Part shown: positions 37,778 through 44,624 of the stretch, piece after piece
Layout: the number at the start of each line of letters is the position of its first letter
Position numbering within the stretch: position 1 is the first letter of the stretch
Assembly: GCA_902386205.1 (NCBI GenBank)
Contig: CABMIH010000033.1
Coordinates: 1 to 44,624 of the forward strand
Source of the DNA: an uncultured archaeon
Lineage (GTDB): Archaea > Halobacteriota > Methanosarcinia > Methanosarcinales > Methanoperedenaceae
Direction of reading: 5' to 3'
Length of the DNA stretch: 44,624 nt
Notes under the pieces: model-generated
Database searches by the model: none
What the model saw: the letters and a program-made list of their open reading frames with translations, nothing else
What the model was told of the DNA's origin: nothing
Translations under genes and position numbers: made by a program

Positions 37778-40700
37778 TCAACCCCCGCCATAACCCATAG
37801 CAACCGTTGAAGCTGTATTAATCTGGTTAACAACTGCCGCCACAGGCTGGCTTGAAACTACCACAGCCGATCCGCCTGTTGTAGGCGCCGAAGGCGCAGG
37901 GACGAATACCTGTGATGTATTCGCAGAGATTACTGCGTTCCGGGTTTCTACAGGTGCACCGTTCTGGTCATAGAACGATACGGCGACATTCGCGCTCACA
38001 GTCCCAGTATTCTGGACATACACCGGGGTATTCCAGCCTGAATTGCCATATGATATCCACGGGATGTATACCTGGCTTGATCCTGTCGCGAAACCATCGT
38101 AGCTCATAGCCCAATTATTGTTGTTTATCATCTCATTGACGATTGCTATGACATCCTGTGTGGACTCGATAACCGCAGACCCATAAGATGTCGATGCAGC
38201 GGGAGGCCAGAACACGGATGCAGTGTTCGGAGGTATTACTCCAGTTTGTGTCTGGACAGGAACACCATTTGAATCGTAAAAGTTCACATTCACGCTGGCA
38301 CTTGCAGTACCGATGTTCTGAACCTGGATCGGTGTATAGGTATTTGTCTGGGAGAAGTTTATTGCAGGAATATAGACTTTCCTTGACCCTGTACTAAATC
38401 CTTCATAGCTCATGGCCTGGGGTGTGACTTTGGCCATTTCATTGACCACGGCGATCACATTCCGTGTTGAGGTAATCACTGCGGAACCGCCTGCCGTCGG
38501 ACCCGCTGGAGGCCAGAACACTGACGATGTCCTGGGCTGGATGGTAGCAGTCTGGGTCGCTACAGGATTACCGCTCTGGTCATACATGGCAACCGATACG
38601 TCGGCAGGCACGGTGTCGATATTCTGGACCTGGATGGGTGTATACCAGTCGGTCTGTGAATACGCTATCCACGGAATGTACACTTTCGTTGAGCCCTGGG
38701 TGAATCCGCTGTAACTCATTCCATCAAGACCGTTCTTTGGCATTTCGTTCACTATGGCGACAACATTCTGTGTTGAGGTAATCACCGCAGACCCGCCTGC
38801 CGTCGGACCCACCGGAGGCCAGAAGACCGAAGTTGCATTAGGCAGGATAGCAGCTGACTGTGTTGTTACCAAGTTGCCGTTCTGGTCATAGAACGCAACA
38901 GCAAAATTTGCACTGACAGTCCCTGCATTCTGGACATACAGCGGCGTAAGCCAGTCTGATTGGGAATACGCTATCCATGGGATGAACATCCCTGTACTTG
39001 GAGTAAGGATAAAGTCCTGTATTATATCTGCATTAACCAACAATGTTGTTACATTCGTTGCATACCCTGAAGCACCTGCACTTACCTGGTACGTACCAGC
39101 AGGAACGTTCATTGAATAATCGCCTGTGGTGCCTGTGGTTGCGTTATACTGCGAATAGGCATCCAGTTTTACAAGTGCACCGTCAATCCCGAGTCCTGAT
39201 GTGGCGTTGGTAACCTTTCCGCTTAATGCATAGATTGGTTTCGGTATTAGCACAACATCCTGAATTAGTATTGTATCAGCTATAATTGTTGCCGGTGGTA
39301 TCGTATTGTTATAGTCATATTCGGGATCTTTAGTCACATTCAACAGGTAAGTACCCTCAGGGAGACGAAGCGAATAAAATCCTGATGCATCGGTTGTGGC
39401 TTTCCAGGTGGTATTTGTTGCAACAATCGCTCCTTCGATGGGAAGGAGTGAAGAGCTGTTGATTACCGTGCCGTTCAGGAAACCTTTTGGCTGTTGTATG
39501 ACCAGAGTCGCATCCATCGGTAAACTGAATTCACCGTTAAGAGGATAATATGGCTTGGTTATGATTGTCTTGGGTGCTGAGGCCATAACCCTCACACTTA
39601 CCTTGTAAGTACCCTCACCAAGAACAGAGGTATTAAGTGTTGCATTCACTGTCTCGTAGCTTGTATCGAATCTGCCGTCTTTTGCATTCATTGAAGTCCA
39701 ATTGATGATAATCCGATCAAGACTATCCCGAACCTGGTATTGGGCTGCTTCGATAGGCAGGAATTTGCTTGTCTTTGATCCGTTAGCTATGATATCTACT
39801 GGCTTGGTTATTATCACTATCGAGGGTATGAGGGACATATTCACAACGACTGGTATCTGGTTTTGGTCCTTTCCGGCTACATTGTGCGTTGTTATATTAT
39901 TTGTTGGAGTATTATGACAACTGGTACCGCATTTTGCCGGATTGGTGGTAATATTGTTTCCCAGAATATGGTATCGGCCAGATTCAACTGCAATACCCGG
40001 CCCGTGGAAAGGTTCATCCAGACCATTATGAGTTGTGTGACAATCATGACAACCTGAATAGTTCACAGGATTTATAAGCTGCCACCCTGGGTTCTCTACC
40101 CTGCCTCTTGGGCCTGTTGTGCCCTGCACATGGTAGGTGTCAGGAGCATGACAGCTCTTGCATGTATTAGATCCATGGTTTAATTTACTAACAATTAACA
40201 AAGGATCATTTACCGGAACCACTCCTGTGCTGTTTTTATGACAGCTATCACACAGATAAACATCGCGGCGGTCCATATCCTTCTTATAATGACATGTCCA
40301 GCAATCATAATTTGAGACCACGCCCGTACCATCACTTCTATTAATATTGGCATGTCGCCCGAACTTGGAAATGTTAACATCATTTTCAACTACGACATGG
40401 CAAGAGATGCAATCATCAAATACATTAACTTCAATTCTGTAATATTTGAAGGTTGTACCATTTGTATGGCAGCCGGTGCAATAGAGGTCGCCCCCGCGAT
40501 AAAGGTAAGCATCGCTTCCAATATAACCGAATGTGCCGTTGGAGTCACTGCCGTATGTGATCGCAAGGTCATTTTTTGTCATTTTAGGATAATTTGTTCC
40601 ATGTACATCATGGCATGCAGGGCAGGATTCGTAAGATGTTCTATTCCCGCTCATATTATAATCGAACATGCCTTTTATGCCTGCATTAATACTCCCGAAG

Positions 40701-41227
40701 TCGTCCAGATGATTCCAATGTATATTGGTCGGGATATCAGGACCACCGTTTTTACTACCATCATGATAACCAGCCGGATTCGTATTAATGAAATTAGTTC
40801 CAATATTGGCGACGGCAATTGGATCATTTATGTGGTCAGTTGAAGATATATAGCTGGACAACTGACCTACGATCTTTGATTCATTATGGCAGAAATAACA
40901 AAGATAAAAATTTTGTGAATTATACGACGTTGTGAGCGGCCCGGTAATATTACTGCCATTCAACTGTCTTATAAACTTACCGTGGTCCGGGTCACCACCA
41001 TTTATAGAGTTTACATGGCAATCAATACACTTTATAATGCCATGAGGATTCGAATCATAAAGGGAATGATTAATCGGTTTTGCATTAGGAGATGTATGGC
41101 ATGCCCCGTTGAAACACGCATCATTTGGTGAGACACCGAATACGCCTGGAATAAAAAAAATTCCTATGAAAAATAACAGCAATCCTGTCCTATTCACATT
41201 ATTTGATAATATCTTCAGCTTGTACAT
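37778..41227 (-). CDS. Secreted multiheme c-type cytochrome A, 11 heme sites, four C-terminal repeats
   Basis: An 1149-aa extracellular cytochrome. After a signal peptide (residues 1-32, ending GVFG) there are nine canonical CXXCH sites (C67, C110, C202, C250, C273, C309, C326, C356, C393) and two variants, CX4CH at C38 and CX3CH at C433. Residues about 450-580 form a beta domain and 580-745 hold two carboxypeptidase-regulatory-like domains (GFLNGTVI... and ALSGKVTNATSGLGIDGALV). Residues 748-1149 are four tandem repeats with WPP and VNEM motifs. There is no C-terminal membrane anchor. A GAGGT ribosome-binding site precedes the ATG. It is a paralogue of the next gene upstream and both are probably involved in extracellular electron transfer; that is inferred from the heme content and export signal. 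Confidence 0.9.
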   Translation of the reverse strand: MYKLKILSNNVNRTGLLLFFIGIFFIPGVFGVSPNDACFNGACHTSPNAKPINHSLYDSNPHGIIKCIDCHVNSINGGDPDHGKFIRQLNGSNITGPLTTSYNSQNFYLCYFCHNESKIVGQLSSYISSTDHINDPIAVANIGTNFINTNPAGYHDGSKNGGPDIPTNIHWNHLDDFGSINAGIKGMFDYNMSGNRTSYESCPACHDVHGTNYPKMTKNDLAITYGSDSNGTFGYIGSDAYLYRGGDLYCTGCHTNGTTFKYYRIEVNVFDDCISCHVVVENDVNISKFGRHANINRSDGTGVVSNYDCWTCHYKKDMDRRDVYLCDSCHKNSTGVVPVNDPLLIVSKLNHGSNTCKSCHAPDTYHVQGTTGPRGRVENPGWQLINPVNYSGCHDCHTTHNGLDEPFHGPGIAVESGRYHILGNNITTNPAKCGTSCHNTPTNNITTHNVAGKDQNQIPVVVNMSLIPSIVIITKPVDIIANGSKTSKFLPIEAAQYQVRDSLDRIIINWTSMNAKDGRFDTSYETVNATLNTSVLGEGTYKVSVRVMASAPKTIITKPYYPLNGEFSLPMDATLVIQQPKGFLNGTVINSSSLLPIEGAIVATNTTWKATTDASGFYSLRLPEGTYLLNVTKDPEYDYNNTIPPATIIADTILIQDVVLIPKPIYALSGKVTNATSGLGIDGALVKLDAYSQYNATTGTTGDYSMNVPAGTYQVSAGASGYATNVTTLLVNADIIQDFILTPSTGMFIPWIAYSQSDWLTPLYVQNAGTVSANFAVAFYDQNGNLVTTQSAAILPNATSVFWPPVGPTAGGSAVITSTQNVVAIVNEMPKNGLDGMSYSGFTQGSTKVYIPWIAYSQTDWYTPIQVQNIDTVPADVSVAMYDQSGNPVATQTATIQPRTSSVFWPPAGPTAGGSAVITSTRNVIAVVNEMAKVTPQAMSYEGFSTGSRKVYIPAINFSQTNTYTPIQVQNIGTASASVNVNFYDSNGVPVQTQTGVIPPNTASVFWPPAASTSYGSAVIESTQDVIAIVNEMINNNNWAMSYDGFATGSSQVYIPWISYGNSGWNTPVYVQNTGTVSANVAVSFYDQNGAPVETRNAVISANTSQVFVPAPSAPTTGGSAVVVSSQPVAAVVNQINTASTVAMGYGGG
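37781..38986 (-). repeat. Four tandem repeats in cytochrome A C-terminus
   Basis: Units at 38681-38986, 38375-38680, 38069-38374 (each 102 codons) and 37781-38068 (96 codons) share the pattern [FY]IPWI.YS..DW.TP..VQN ... FYDQ.G ... VFWPP ... GSAV..S...VA.VN. Unit 3 differs at YIPAINFSQT. These beta-rich repeats match no family I can name. They are not heme-binding. Confidence 0.85.
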
Positions 41228-41341
41228 AGAGTTAACCTCGCCTATCCAAATTTCACTCGATTATCATATGGATTAATCATGAAATAAAGCTTTCTAATTG
41301 CATTTTTTATAAGTGAAAATGAATGGAATATTAGAGGCCCC

Positions 41342-44300
41342 CTAAACCAACACTCCACCATAAGCCAAAGCCTGCATATTCGAGGTTGCATCAATCTCGC
41401 TAATCTCAGCCGCCACTGGCTGGCTTGAAACAACCACAGCCGAACCACCTGTTGTGAGCGCAGTAGAAGCTGGGACGAATATCTGTGACGTATTCGCCGG
41501 GATCACTGCATTCCTGGTCTCTACAGGCGCGCCGTTCTGGTCATAGAACGATAATGCAACATTCGCGTTCACAGTTCCGGTATTCTGGACATATACCGGA
41601 GTATTCCAGCCTGAATTGCCGTATGCTATCCAGGGGATGGATACCTTGACAGAGCCGGCCGCGAAACCGTCATAGCTCATAGCCCAATTATTGTTGTTTA
41701 TCATCGCGTTGACGATGGCTATAATATCTTGGGTGGACTCGATAACCGCAGACCCTGAAGTAGTCGATGCTGCGGGAGGCCAGAACACAGATGCAGTGTT
41801 CGGAGGTATTACCCCATTCTGAGTCTGGACAAGTGCGCCATTCGAATCGTAAATTTTCACGTTCACGCTGGCACTCGCAGTACCGATATTCTGTACCTGG
41901 ATCGGCGTATAGGTATTCGTCTGGGAGAAATTTATAGCCGGAATATACGCTTTCCTTGACCCGGTATTAAATCCTTCATAGCTCATGGCCTGGGATGTGA
42001 CTTTACTCATTTCATTGACTATGGCGATCACATTCCTTGTTGAGGTTATCACGGCCGAACCACCTGTGGTCGGACCTGCTGGAGGCCAGAACACAGAAGC
42101 AGTATTGGGTTGGATGGCAGCCGTCTGGATTGCTAAAGGATTGCCGTTCTGGTCAAACATCGAAACTGATACGTTTGCTGACGTGCTATCAATATTCTGA
42201 ACCTGGATGGGTGTATACCAGTCTGATTGGGAATACGCTATCCAGGGAATATATACTTTCGTAGAGCCCTGCGTAAAACCATTGTAGCTCATGCCGTCCA
42301 AGCCGTTCTTGGGCATTTCGTTAACTATGGCGACAACTTTCTGGGTGGAGGTTATAATTGCAGTGCCACCTGTTGTCTGGCCAATAGGAGGCCAGAACAC
42401 AGAAGCAGTATTGGGCTGGATCGTTGCAATCTGGGTCGTTACTAAATTGCCAGTCTGGTCATACATCGAAACTGATACGGTAGATGTAGATGAACCAATA
42501 TTTTGCACCTGGATCGGTGTGTACCAGTCTGATTGGGAATACGCTATCCACGGGATGAATATACCTGAACTTACGTTAAGGATGAAGTCCTGTCTCATAT
42601 TCTTATTCACTAATAATGTCGTTACGTTTGTTGAATAGCCTGAAGCTGTTGCACTTACCTGATACCTATCACCTGGAACGTTCATTGAATAATCTCCTGT
42701 GATGTTAGAAGTTACATTATACTGGGGATAGGCATCAAGTTTTACAAGTGCACCATTTATCCCAAGGCCTGAAGAGGCATTTGTAAGTCTTCCGTTCAAT
42801 TGATAAACAGGTTTCCTTGTCAATAAAATATCCTGGGTTACGGTCGTAAATGGCGCAACTATCACGGGGGGGATTGTATTGTTGGAATTATATTCCGGCA
42901 ATTTTGAAGCATTTAGTACATAAGTACCATTTGGAATATGCAATGAATAGAAACCTGAGTTATCAGTTACCGTGGAAATCCCAGTGCTCGCAGCTACCAT
43001 GACCCCGGAGATTCCAGTGAGACCCTCTCTCACAGTACCATTGATGAAACCTTTCGATTCAGTTATGGTTATGATCGCAGTAACCGGAGTACTCCACTGT
43101 TTCCCTATATCCATCCCACGGACATAAACATAATGAGTCCCTAAAGAAAGGCCCGAAGTATTTATACTCCCTGTGATGTCTTCCCATCCTCCATTGACCG
43201 CATCAAACCGCCCATCAACCGCCCCCATTGGTTTTCCTTTCCCCGGTCCAGGAATCGGGCTAATATGATCCGATCTAATATAATATTCCGCTCCCCTGAC
43301 TCTGCTTGCAAGGTAATTATAGTCTTTAATTCTCGAAGTAATTGTCACGGTTTCACCTCTCATTACGGTCAATTCCATAGTACCGTTCAAATAAACTGTA
43401 TCTGTTGTGGGTGGATTCCCCGGTGAAAAGGTCCAATCTGTATTGTGGTCAACTGGATCGAATTGCCCCAGGGTTCCATTATCTGTCGGAATGTGACAGG
43501 AATAACTACAGTCGTAATCTTTATGATTTGTGCCTGTTAGATTAGGTGCACTATATTGATCTGCATATAGTGAATGGCATCCTATGCAGCTCCTCGTCAG
43601 AGGCATGCTTAACGAACCATTGTGTAAATTATCGGCATTTCCGGAAACATGGCACTGGTTGCATGTTGCAAGAGAGGTATGAGCTGACTTTATTTGTGCA
43701 CTGGTACCGTAATTCGGATTTGGCGGATTATGGCATGAATTGCATTCCTTATTGTAATTTGAAGCTTCTCCCTGTGACATAAATCCATAAGCAGGCGCAA
43801 GTGTGTTGTTGACCGTGGGTTTTAGCAAGGATACATTTGTTCCGTAGTGACCAACACTTGCATTGGGATTGTAAGCAAACGCGGTAATGCTGTTGTTATG
43901 ACAGGTAGAGCAATCGGAAGACGTTTTTATGCTGGCGCCGGAGGGTATATGGTTCTTTACTATAGGAGCTGAAAAATTAGCCGCCGCGTGACAATCAATG
44001 CACGTAAATGTTGCTGTAGTTATTCCAGGCAGCGTCATGTTTGAAATATTATAGTGACATGAAACACAGTCATTATTATCCAGAACATCCGATCCACCTG
44101 TTACATTTACATTATTGTGCCTGCCAAATGACGCTTGAACAATGGCAGGATAAATTCCTTTTTGTAAATTATGACAGCCGAGGCAGTTACTCGATGTCCC
44201 GATTTTTACGGTTATAGTGATTGTTTCATTCGCTTTCCCACCGTAGTTATCTGTGGAATTGAAGTACCATGTATAATTTCCTGAATCGCCATTGCCAGGT

Positions 44301-44624
44301 GTCCATGAGAATTGCCCTGTTGTGATGTTAAATGTTCCTTTGCTGGCATTCGTACCGTATGATATCGCGTCATAATCAAGATCCGTAGATATTACTGTGA
44401 ACTGGAGGAGAGTGTTCTCATCTATTACTTTGTTCCCGATTGGCTGCTGGACTGGCGGGTTATTCGGGATCGTGGCATTGAACCATATCATGGTCTGGTT
44501 GGTATTCCCGGAGGTATCGACTGTCTGGGAACTGATATTCTGGGTATAGTGTGGTGACAAGGTAAGATTAAGATAGTTCGTAGGTTTGCTGACGTTTTGG
44601 AGTGTGGTACCATTGCTGTACCTG
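41342..44624 (-). CDS. Secreted multiheme c-type cytochrome B, at least 8 heme sites (5' end outside window)
   Basis: The frame is open to the right edge, so the N-terminus with its signal peptide is missing. Visible order, numbered from the in-frame TTG at 44560: an Ig-like (He_PIG-type) domain (FTVISTDLDYDAISYGTNAS ... GQFSWTPGNGDSGNYTWYF), a heme domain with seven CXXCH (C126, C165, C187, C217, C273, C300, C325) and one CX3CH (C351), a beta domain, two carboxypeptidase-regulatory-like domains, and the same four-repeat C-terminus as cytochrome A, ending ALAYGGVLV. No C-terminal anchor. It lies 114 bases upstream of cytochrome A on the same strand, so the two may be co-transcribed or share regulation. 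Electron-transfer role inferred. Confidence 0.9.
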   Translation of the reverse strand, partial: RYSNGTTLQNVSKPTNYLNLTLSPHYTQNISSQTVDTSGNTNQTMIWFNATIPNNPPVQQPIGNKVIDENTLLQFTVISTDLDYDAISYGTNASKGTFNITTGQFSWTPGNGDSGNYTWYFNSTDNYGGKANETITITVKIGTSSNCLGCHNLQKGIYPAIVQASFGRHNNVNVTGGSDVLDNNDCVSCHYNISNMTLPGITTATFTCIDCHAAANFSAPIVKNHIPSGASIKTSSDCSTCHNNSITAFAYNPNASVGHYGTNVSLLKPTVNNTLAPAYGFMSQGEASNYNKECNSCHNPPNPNYGTSAQIKSAHTSLATCNQCHVSGNADNLHNGSLSMPLTRSCIGCHSLYADQYSAPNLTGTNHKDYDCSYSCHIPTDNGTLGQFDPVDHNTDWTFSPGNPPTTDTVYLNGTMELTVMRGETVTITSRIKDYNYLASRVRGAEYYIRSDHISPIPGPGKGKPMGAVDGRFDAVNGGWEDITGSINTSGLSLGTHYVYVRGMDIGKQWSTPVTAIITITESKGFINGTVREGLTGISGVMVAASTGISTVTDNSGFYSLHIPNGTYVLNASKLPEYNSNNTIPPVIVAPFTTVTQDILLTRKPVYQLNGRLTNASSGLGINGALVKLDAYPQYNVTSNITGDYSMNVPGDRYQVSATASGYSTNVTTLLVNKNMRQDFILNVSSGIFIPWIAYSQSDWYTPIQVQNIGSSTSTVSVSMYDQTGNLVTTQIATIQPNTASVFWPPIGQTTGGTAIITSTQKVVAIVNEMPKNGLDGMSYNGFTQGSTKVYIPWIAYSQSDWYTPIQVQNIDSTSANVSVSMFDQNGNPLAIQTAAIQPNTASVFWPPAGPTTGGSAVITSTRNVIAIVNEMSKVTSQAMSYEGFNTGSRKAYIPAINFSQTNTYTPIQVQNIGTASASVNVKIYDSNGALVQTQNGVIPPNTASVFWPPAASTTSGSAVIESTQDIIAIVNAMINNNNWAMSYDGFAAGSVKVSIPWIAYGNSGWNTPVYVQNTGTVNANVALSFYDQNGAPVETRNAVIPANTSQIFVPASTALTTGGSAVVVSSQPVAAEISEIDATSNMQALAYGGVLV
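41345..42559 (-). repeat. Four tandem repeats in cytochrome B C-terminus
   Basis: Units at 42254-42559, 41948-42253, 41642-41947 (102 codons each) and 41345-41641 (99 codons). Each unit matches the same-position unit of cytochrome A better than its own neighbours (for example unit 3: YIPAINFSQTNTYTPIQVQN in both), and much of the DNA is nearly identical. Confidence 0.85.

Follow-up and report, generated by a model that had tools for sequence, protein, structure and literature searches.

A beta-repeat tail on giant archaeal cytochromes and a candidate strand-and-acceptor system for surface display in Methanoperedenaceae

The stretch of DNA analysed here (the window) is a whole contig of 44,624 nucleotides (CABMIH010000033.1, hereafter C33, of assembly GCA_902386205.1) from an uncultured archaeon of the family Methanoperedenaceae, whose genome is available as 88 contigs totalling 2.79 Mb. 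Two adjacent genes of the window, which we name A and B, encode large multiheme cytochromes that carry different heme heads on a common C-terminal part, composed of two carboxypeptidase-regulatory-like domains (CpD1 and CpD2) and a tail of four beta repeats. A comparison with related genomes revealed that what is a single chain in the window exists in them as two proteins, with the break inside CpD2, a point missed by an earlier note made from the letters of this DNA. On one side of the break there are secreted proteins (the cargo) finishing in an orphan strand of CpD2 (the tag), and on the other side an exported protein (the acceptor) with the rest of CpD2 and an anchor. We cautiously propose that one exported acceptor, that is, a strand-deficient transthyretin-like domain with an exchangeable anchor, captures dozens of secreted proteins by their orphan C-terminal strand and arranges giant cytochromes and other enzymes on the surface of methane-oxidising archaea, which would make up an undescribed archaeal surface-display system, fused in some species.

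The search of congeneric genomes (Candidatus Methanoperedens) found no fused tails; instead, separate exported proteins of ~560 residues were present. Next to them lie genes for proteins of several kinds, including cytochromes and beta-helix proteins, in which CpD1 is the last complete domain and KPTGNITGxV leads up to the stop codon. This tag, with the general form KPTG[NT]I[TS]GxV, is the first strand (strand A) of CpD2 with no domain after it, and in the alignment the chains of the window read as a tag half and an acceptor half joined together (KPIYALSGKVTN then ATSGLGIDGALVKL). Profiles of the tag recovered 80 proteins that stop 0–6 residues after the strand, plus one tagged protein that continues for 98 residues and one match cut by a contig edge or a frame break. 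Across the 80 proteins the two glycines are invariant, and the Ile, Lys and Val are kept in 97%, 96% and 89%, respectively. The stop lies 2–4 residues past the tag Val in 73 of them, and there is no transmembrane or basic segment after the motif. Cytochromes with 5 to 54 CXXCH motifs account for 34 of the 80 proteins; the other 46 are not cytochromes, and Pfam searches with the 33 longest of these detected Peptidase_S8 in 10, NosD in 8 and Beta_helix in 8. At the DNA level, each of the four Gly codons and each of the three stop codons occurs, and the identity of the downstream sequences is at background (27%), which indicates selection on the protein and rules out a DNA recombination site as the cause of the conservation. 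Tags are present in 15 of the 185 genomes of the order, namely 13 congeners and two members of another family (G034 and G445), the window genome having the fused form. Beyond the order, no full tag was seen in a sample of 393 genomes of the phylum, which gave generic CpD matches only (≤68 bits).

The acceptor shows in turn a signal sequence, a CpD that starts just past strand A, and four beta repeats. It was found as a stand-alone protein in 9 of 30 congeners and in G034, always one per genome, and the ten genomes also carry tags; the hypergeometric probability of this nesting, in a calculation that ignores relatedness through shared descent, is 5e-5 for the genus and 3e-13 for the order. Moreover, in six of the seven genomes with an intact and visible upstream gene, the acceptor gene sits directly 3′ of a tagged gene and shares its strand, a count that leaves out G011 (upstream tag broken), G002 (contig end) and G034 (acceptor at a contig end). 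Ahead of strand B, the predicted mature acceptors keep 8–12 residues, with cleavage sites set by the small-x-Ala rule and not by a signal-peptide program, against the 16 residues counted from the start of the modelled strand A in the fused protein A. An acceptor domain minus one strand and a partner with the matching free strand are, at the sequence level, the two halves of a donor-strand pair. In our opinion, tag and acceptor belong very likely to one system, and the donation of the cargo strand to the acceptor (donor-strand complementation) is a reasonable, somewhat favoured interpretation of how they would meet.

The best evidence on what the tail repeats do comes from G034, in the other family. 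Its acceptor has the same acceptor domain followed by three SLH domains (152 bits, E=3e-45) in place of the beta repeats, so that the repeats are replaced there by a known surface-anchoring module. No other SLH protein was found in G034, and a gene for a polysaccharide pyruvyl transferase (E=1e-34), an enzyme of the kind that produces the SLH ligand in bacteria, maps ~2–5 kb from it on the opposite strand. The suggestion of the earlier note that the tail is a surface anchor gains from this replacement its strongest support, and we consider it quite probable that the tail holds proteins at the cell surface, where the repeats might bind a surface polysaccharide or the S-layer. According to the model that we put forward, the cargo (giant cytochromes, subtilases, beta-helix proteins) would be secreted with CpD1 and the orphan strand at its C-terminus, this strand would fill the incomplete CpD of the acceptor, and the acceptor tail, either four DUF5719-like repeats or three SLH domains, would keep the complex at the surface. 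In this way a single type of anchor could hold many proteins at the surface of the cell. In the window genome, strand, domain and tail come in a single chain and therefore each cytochrome bears its own anchor; we lean towards regarding the tail as a general surface-anchoring module and the window cytochromes as the fused version of what is normally a two-protein system.

Regarding the fused proteins themselves, counts of CXXCH motifs and variants corroborated the tandem cytochromes announced for this locus: 11 heme sites in A (nine CXXCH, one CX4CH at residue 38 and one CX3CH at residue 433) and at least 8 in the visible part of B (seven CXXCH and one CX3CH), with 0.002–0.007 CXXCH per protein expected by chance from composition shuffles. 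Both thus exceed the three CXXCH of an exported multiheme c-type cytochrome. Their export, also claimed, could be followed in A, which has an N-terminal signal sequence; the 5′ end of B is open because the contig stops there, leaving its start and any signal peptide out of view. Apart from the signal of A, no hydrophobic 19-mer of either protein qualifies as a membrane anchor, as anticipated, and no hydrophobic segment occurs at the C-terminus of A or B. Pfam and the comparison of the repeats likewise upheld the description of different heads on a shared pair of CpD domains and a four-repeat tail, with two CarboxypepD_reg domains (PF13620) in each protein, at scores of 61.8 and 51.1 bits against a cut-off of 32.3, and a Big_9 domain near the N-terminus of B.

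The tail comprises in both proteins exactly four repeats of 102, 102, 102 and 95–98 residues. Repeats at the same position of A and B are more alike (A3 versus B3, 87%) than those within one protein (A3 versus A2, 62%), so the array was copied as a unit. The repeats are real, as the earlier note had it, but they are not foreign to every named family: a profile search identified DUF5719 (PF18986) as a remote relative. At a cut-off of 26.2 bits, the tail of a subtilase from the same genome scores 30.7 and B stays below with 23.3, with A unreported; scores above the cut-off were also reached by proteins of G426, a genome outside the genus (59 and 45 bits), and by three acceptors (39, 46 and 32 bits). 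The family is itself of unknown function, and the match gives no mechanism.

The idea of modular heads on a swappable tail was borne out by the rest of the genome. The tail also terminates a cytochrome of contig C9 (11 CXXCH) and, in C18, a heme-free subtilase (Peptidase_S8, E=1e-63) and a cytochrome with 12 CXXCH; a beta-helix protein of C27 shows the first ~25 tail residues before the contig ends, and partial tails are seen where C17, C21 and C26 end. The tail on the subtilase and its start on the beta-helix protein rule out a module restricted to cytochromes. Compared in DNA with the tail of A, and among the complete tails compared, the subtilase tail is the closest (82%), followed by that of B (79%) and of the C9 cytochrome (72%). 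In the six fused junctions that can be read, CpD1 precedes CpD2 in A, B, the C18 cytochrome and the subtilase, and CpD2 stands alone in C9 and C27; CpD2 plus tail is therefore the constant unit. Beyond the genus, G426 has tails of this family, again with four repeats, on two proteins, one GH26-like and the other an SBBP/PKD beta-propeller protein. Close relatives of the four-repeat tail were absent from GTDB r220 contigs, IMG/VR and plasmids.

AlphaFold2 modelled residues 575–1149 of A with most of the CpD1–CpD2 blocks at a predicted local distance difference test (pLDDT) of 80–93, the repeats reaching about 30–80, and placed residues 665–674 as the first strand of CpD2. In a Foldseek search, the CpD domains superposed at 1.4–1.6 Å on the transthyretin-like domain of carboxypeptidase D, and many further matches of low TM-score, to multidomain proteins, gave no sure assignment of the repeats.

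Several observations weigh against the two-protein system as we draw it. No acceptor was detected in four tagged Methanoperedens genomes, namely G004 and G016 (both 95% complete) and G023 and G027 (both fragmentary), nor in the tagged G445 of the other family, and a search of the tagged genomes lacking an acceptor for one of SLH type found none. In METP1 (G003) the acceptor is not next to a tagged gene. The acceptors retain 2–4 residues that possibly form a short strand A, which could let their domain fold in the absence of a donor strand. The fused chains (KPIY, KPVY) do not keep the Gly that is invariant in KPTG, and this residue may thus serve something other than strand pairing. Finally, the prediction of the BLZ2 acceptor alone, based on 3 sequences, had a mean pLDDT of 39.8 and does not allow interpretation.

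The tagged genomes with no detected acceptor would agree with an alternative in which the shared tail does anchor proteins at the surface, the C-terminal strand serves only to cap CpD1 for folding or export, and the acceptor is an unrelated relative of the tail; the common use of CpD domains as spacers would also agree with it. We find this unlikely, since all ten acceptors fall in tagged genomes, six of seven adjoin a tagged gene, and the piece absent from the acceptor domain is the very piece found at the end of the cargo, with the fused chains joined exactly there.

Tag and acceptor could also be true partners that become covalently joined, either by a sortase-like or other transpeptidation or by an isopeptide of the CnaB type. 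KPTG resembles a sortase motif, its Gly is invariant in the tags and lost in the fused chains, and the CpD and CnaB folds are related, as matches to SpaA profiles indicate. In sortase and archaeosortase substrates, a transmembrane helix and basic residues come after the motif; the tags have neither, and their chain usually ends 2–3 residues past the Val. The N-termini of the acceptors are not Gly-rich, and the position of the strand-A Lys of CnaB domains is occupied here by a Gly. We therefore judge a covalent link improbable.

In line with the earlier note, the tail could be part of an electron-transfer machine and bind another cytochrome or a conductive filament. In favour of this, 34 of the 80 cargoes are cytochromes, and the acceptor of G019 sits beside an OmcZ homologue and a subtilase. 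Nevertheless, more than half of the tagged cargo is heme-free, the closest of the complete tails compared with that of A belongs to the heme-free subtilase, a beta-helix protein carries the start of the tail and, outside the genus, tails are found on glycosidase-like (GH26-like) and beta-propeller proteins, so we consider this role very improbable. Least credible of all is a spread of the tail by exchange of DNA cassettes, in which the split genes would be a reservoir for recombination and not a protein system. The DNA identity of 72–92% among tails of the window genome, and the several contig ends where they interrupt the assembly, speak for it; against it, the tag codons and stops vary freely, the downstream DNA is unconserved and the acceptors possess their own signal peptide.

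The proposed strand-and-acceptor system shares traits with known ones. The large cytochromes MHC-A and MHC-B of anaerobic methanotrophic archaea (ANME) have an S-layer domain (DUF1608) and a C-terminal transmembrane helix, and MHC-C has neither (Chadwick et al. 2022, PMC9012536). Like MHC-A and MHC-B, the proteins of the window are very large secreted cytochromes of archaea that oxidise methane, and an added domain presumably fixes them to the cell surface, but they lack the C-terminal helix and DUF1608 (absent from their Pfam matches at E up to 10). The anchor would here be the beta tail with its four repeats, either on the same chain or on a separate protein, and a tag of this kind might also serve MHC-C. 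Cohesin and dockerin proteins also occur in ANME archaea (Chadwick et al. 2022, PMC9012536), and the resemblance lies in a single kind of docking element spread over many cargoes, a single anchored receptor and SLH as anchor module, whereas the docking element here is the orphan first strand of a CpD. No cohesin or dockerin appeared among the listed Pfam matches of the window proteins, the acceptors and the 33 tagged cargoes (for the cargoes, the commonest 25 of 29 families). As in chaperone-usher pili and in the Sulfolobus thread filament (PMC9715654), a terminal strand is proposed to complete the incomplete beta domain of another protein; in our case there is no reaction between filament subunits, but one acceptor for many unrelated cargoes, a C-terminal donor and a transthyretin-like fold. 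With the C-terminal domains of type IX secretion and the PGF-CTERM of archaeosortase, the tag has in common a C-terminal signal present on many secreted proteins of one genome, but there is no outer membrane here and no transmembrane helix or basic tail past the motif, and none of the NCBIfam sorting models matches the tag. In the literature, we found no paper on the tag, the acceptor or DUF5719, most subscription journals being outside the coverage of the search.

The positions of the features in the window are collected in Table 1.

Table 1. Features of genes A and B in the window (positions on the 44,624-nucleotide contig; res, residues; AF2, AlphaFold2)
Feature	Position	Strand	Remarks
Gene A, secreted 11-heme cytochrome with CpD1-CpD2-four-repeat tail	37778..41227	-	1149 aa
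A signal sequence, res 1-33	41129..41227	-	hydrophobic peak res 14-32
A heme head, res 38-438	39914..41116	-	9 CXXCH + CX4CH + CX3CH
A beta domain linking heme head to CpD1, res ~460-575	39503..39850	-	sequence; no confident Pfam match
A CpD1 (CarboxypepD_reg), res ~583-662; counterpart: C-terminal domain of tagged cargo in congeners	39242..39481	-	
A CpD2 strand A, IYALSGKVTN, res 665-674; counterpart: orphan C-terminal cargo strand KPTG[NT]I[TS]GxV	39206..39235	-	AF2 strand 91-100 of modelled piece; alignment
A remainder of CpD2; counterpart: N-terminal domain of stand-alone acceptor	38996..39205	-	
A tail repeat 1	38678..38983	-	102 aa
A tail repeat 2	38372..38677	-	
A tail repeat 3	38066..38371	-	
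A tail repeat 4	37781..38065	-	
Gene B, multiheme cytochrome (8 or more heme sites), open at contig end	41342..44623	-	1093 aa visible
B Big_9 Ig-like domain, res 54-138	44210..44464	-	Pfam E=4e-7
B heme region, res 147-377	43493..44185	-	7 CXXCH + CX3CH
B CpD1	42815..43054	-	Pfam
B CpD2, strand A intact (VYQLNGRLTN)	42569..42808	-	Pfam, alignment
B four tail repeats	41345..42556	-	42251-42556, 41945-42250, 41639-41944, 41345-41638

Some additional observations concern the sequences around tags, acceptors and tails. Tagged cytochromes of ~2500–3060 residues with 44–54 CXXCH come from G021 (L169, L170, L172), and in G034 a tagged open frame of 1798 residues has 47 CXXCH (L226, 8202–13595). One contig of METP1 (L176) bears at one end a cytochrome frame with 24 CXXCH truncated within its CpD, and at the opposite end a separate tagged frame of 74 residues. 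In the viral collection, the contig IMGVR_UViG_3300010391_000186 (L255, 5001–5216) encodes a 134-residue protein with a signal-like start, a CpD and KKPTGTITG followed by ~27 residues; the acceptor profile had no match in viral contigs. The CpD1-tag region is weakly similar to the models of the anammox S-layer glycoprotein Kustd1514 and of the S-layer protein SlaB. The acceptor repeats diverge greatly among species, with four of them, by inspection, in each complete acceptor. Most acceptors, even those with differing repeats, keep a signal region (GYKKIATGIAIVxxLALxYIALIPGGTLA) unusually conserved for a signal peptide.

In the window genome, each of the contigs C17, C18, C21, C26, C27 and C33 has an end within the tail or the head of such a gene. 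The assembly is therefore probably interrupted where tails are nearly identical, and the tail genes likely number at least eight. An in-frame TAA (L021, 6250–6252) splits the tail of the C18 cytochrome between repeats 2 and 3, and the frame then resumes with repeats 3 and 4; it may be due to mutation, strain mixture or assembly error. In G426, the GH26-like and SBBP/PKD genes are adjacent (L055, 6508–13716), each with four DUF5719 repeats at its end, and lie near genes resembling those for sugar-nucleotide enzymes and glycosyltransferases. In G019 (L058, 3620–10036), an OmcZ homologue (8d9m, E=2.5e-54), an OzpA-like subtilase, a tagged 8-heme cytochrome and the acceptor lie in a row on one strand. 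A Methanoperedens OmcZ/OzpA cluster was strongly upregulated on electrodes (Ouboter et al. 2024, PMC10874420), and through the G019 cluster a link of the system with electron transfer is possible.

How anaerobic methanotrophs keep their cytochromes outside the membrane, when they have no outer membrane, is an open question in the field of extracellular electron transfer, for which the models published so far invoke membrane helices and fusion to S-layer domains. In this regard, the rule KPTG[NT]I[TS]GxV plus stop after a CpD picks out candidates for surface docking among the proteins of these genomes and indicates a single partner for them, which makes the idea testable with purified proteins. 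It may also offer a lead toward a natural pair of strand tag and catcher.

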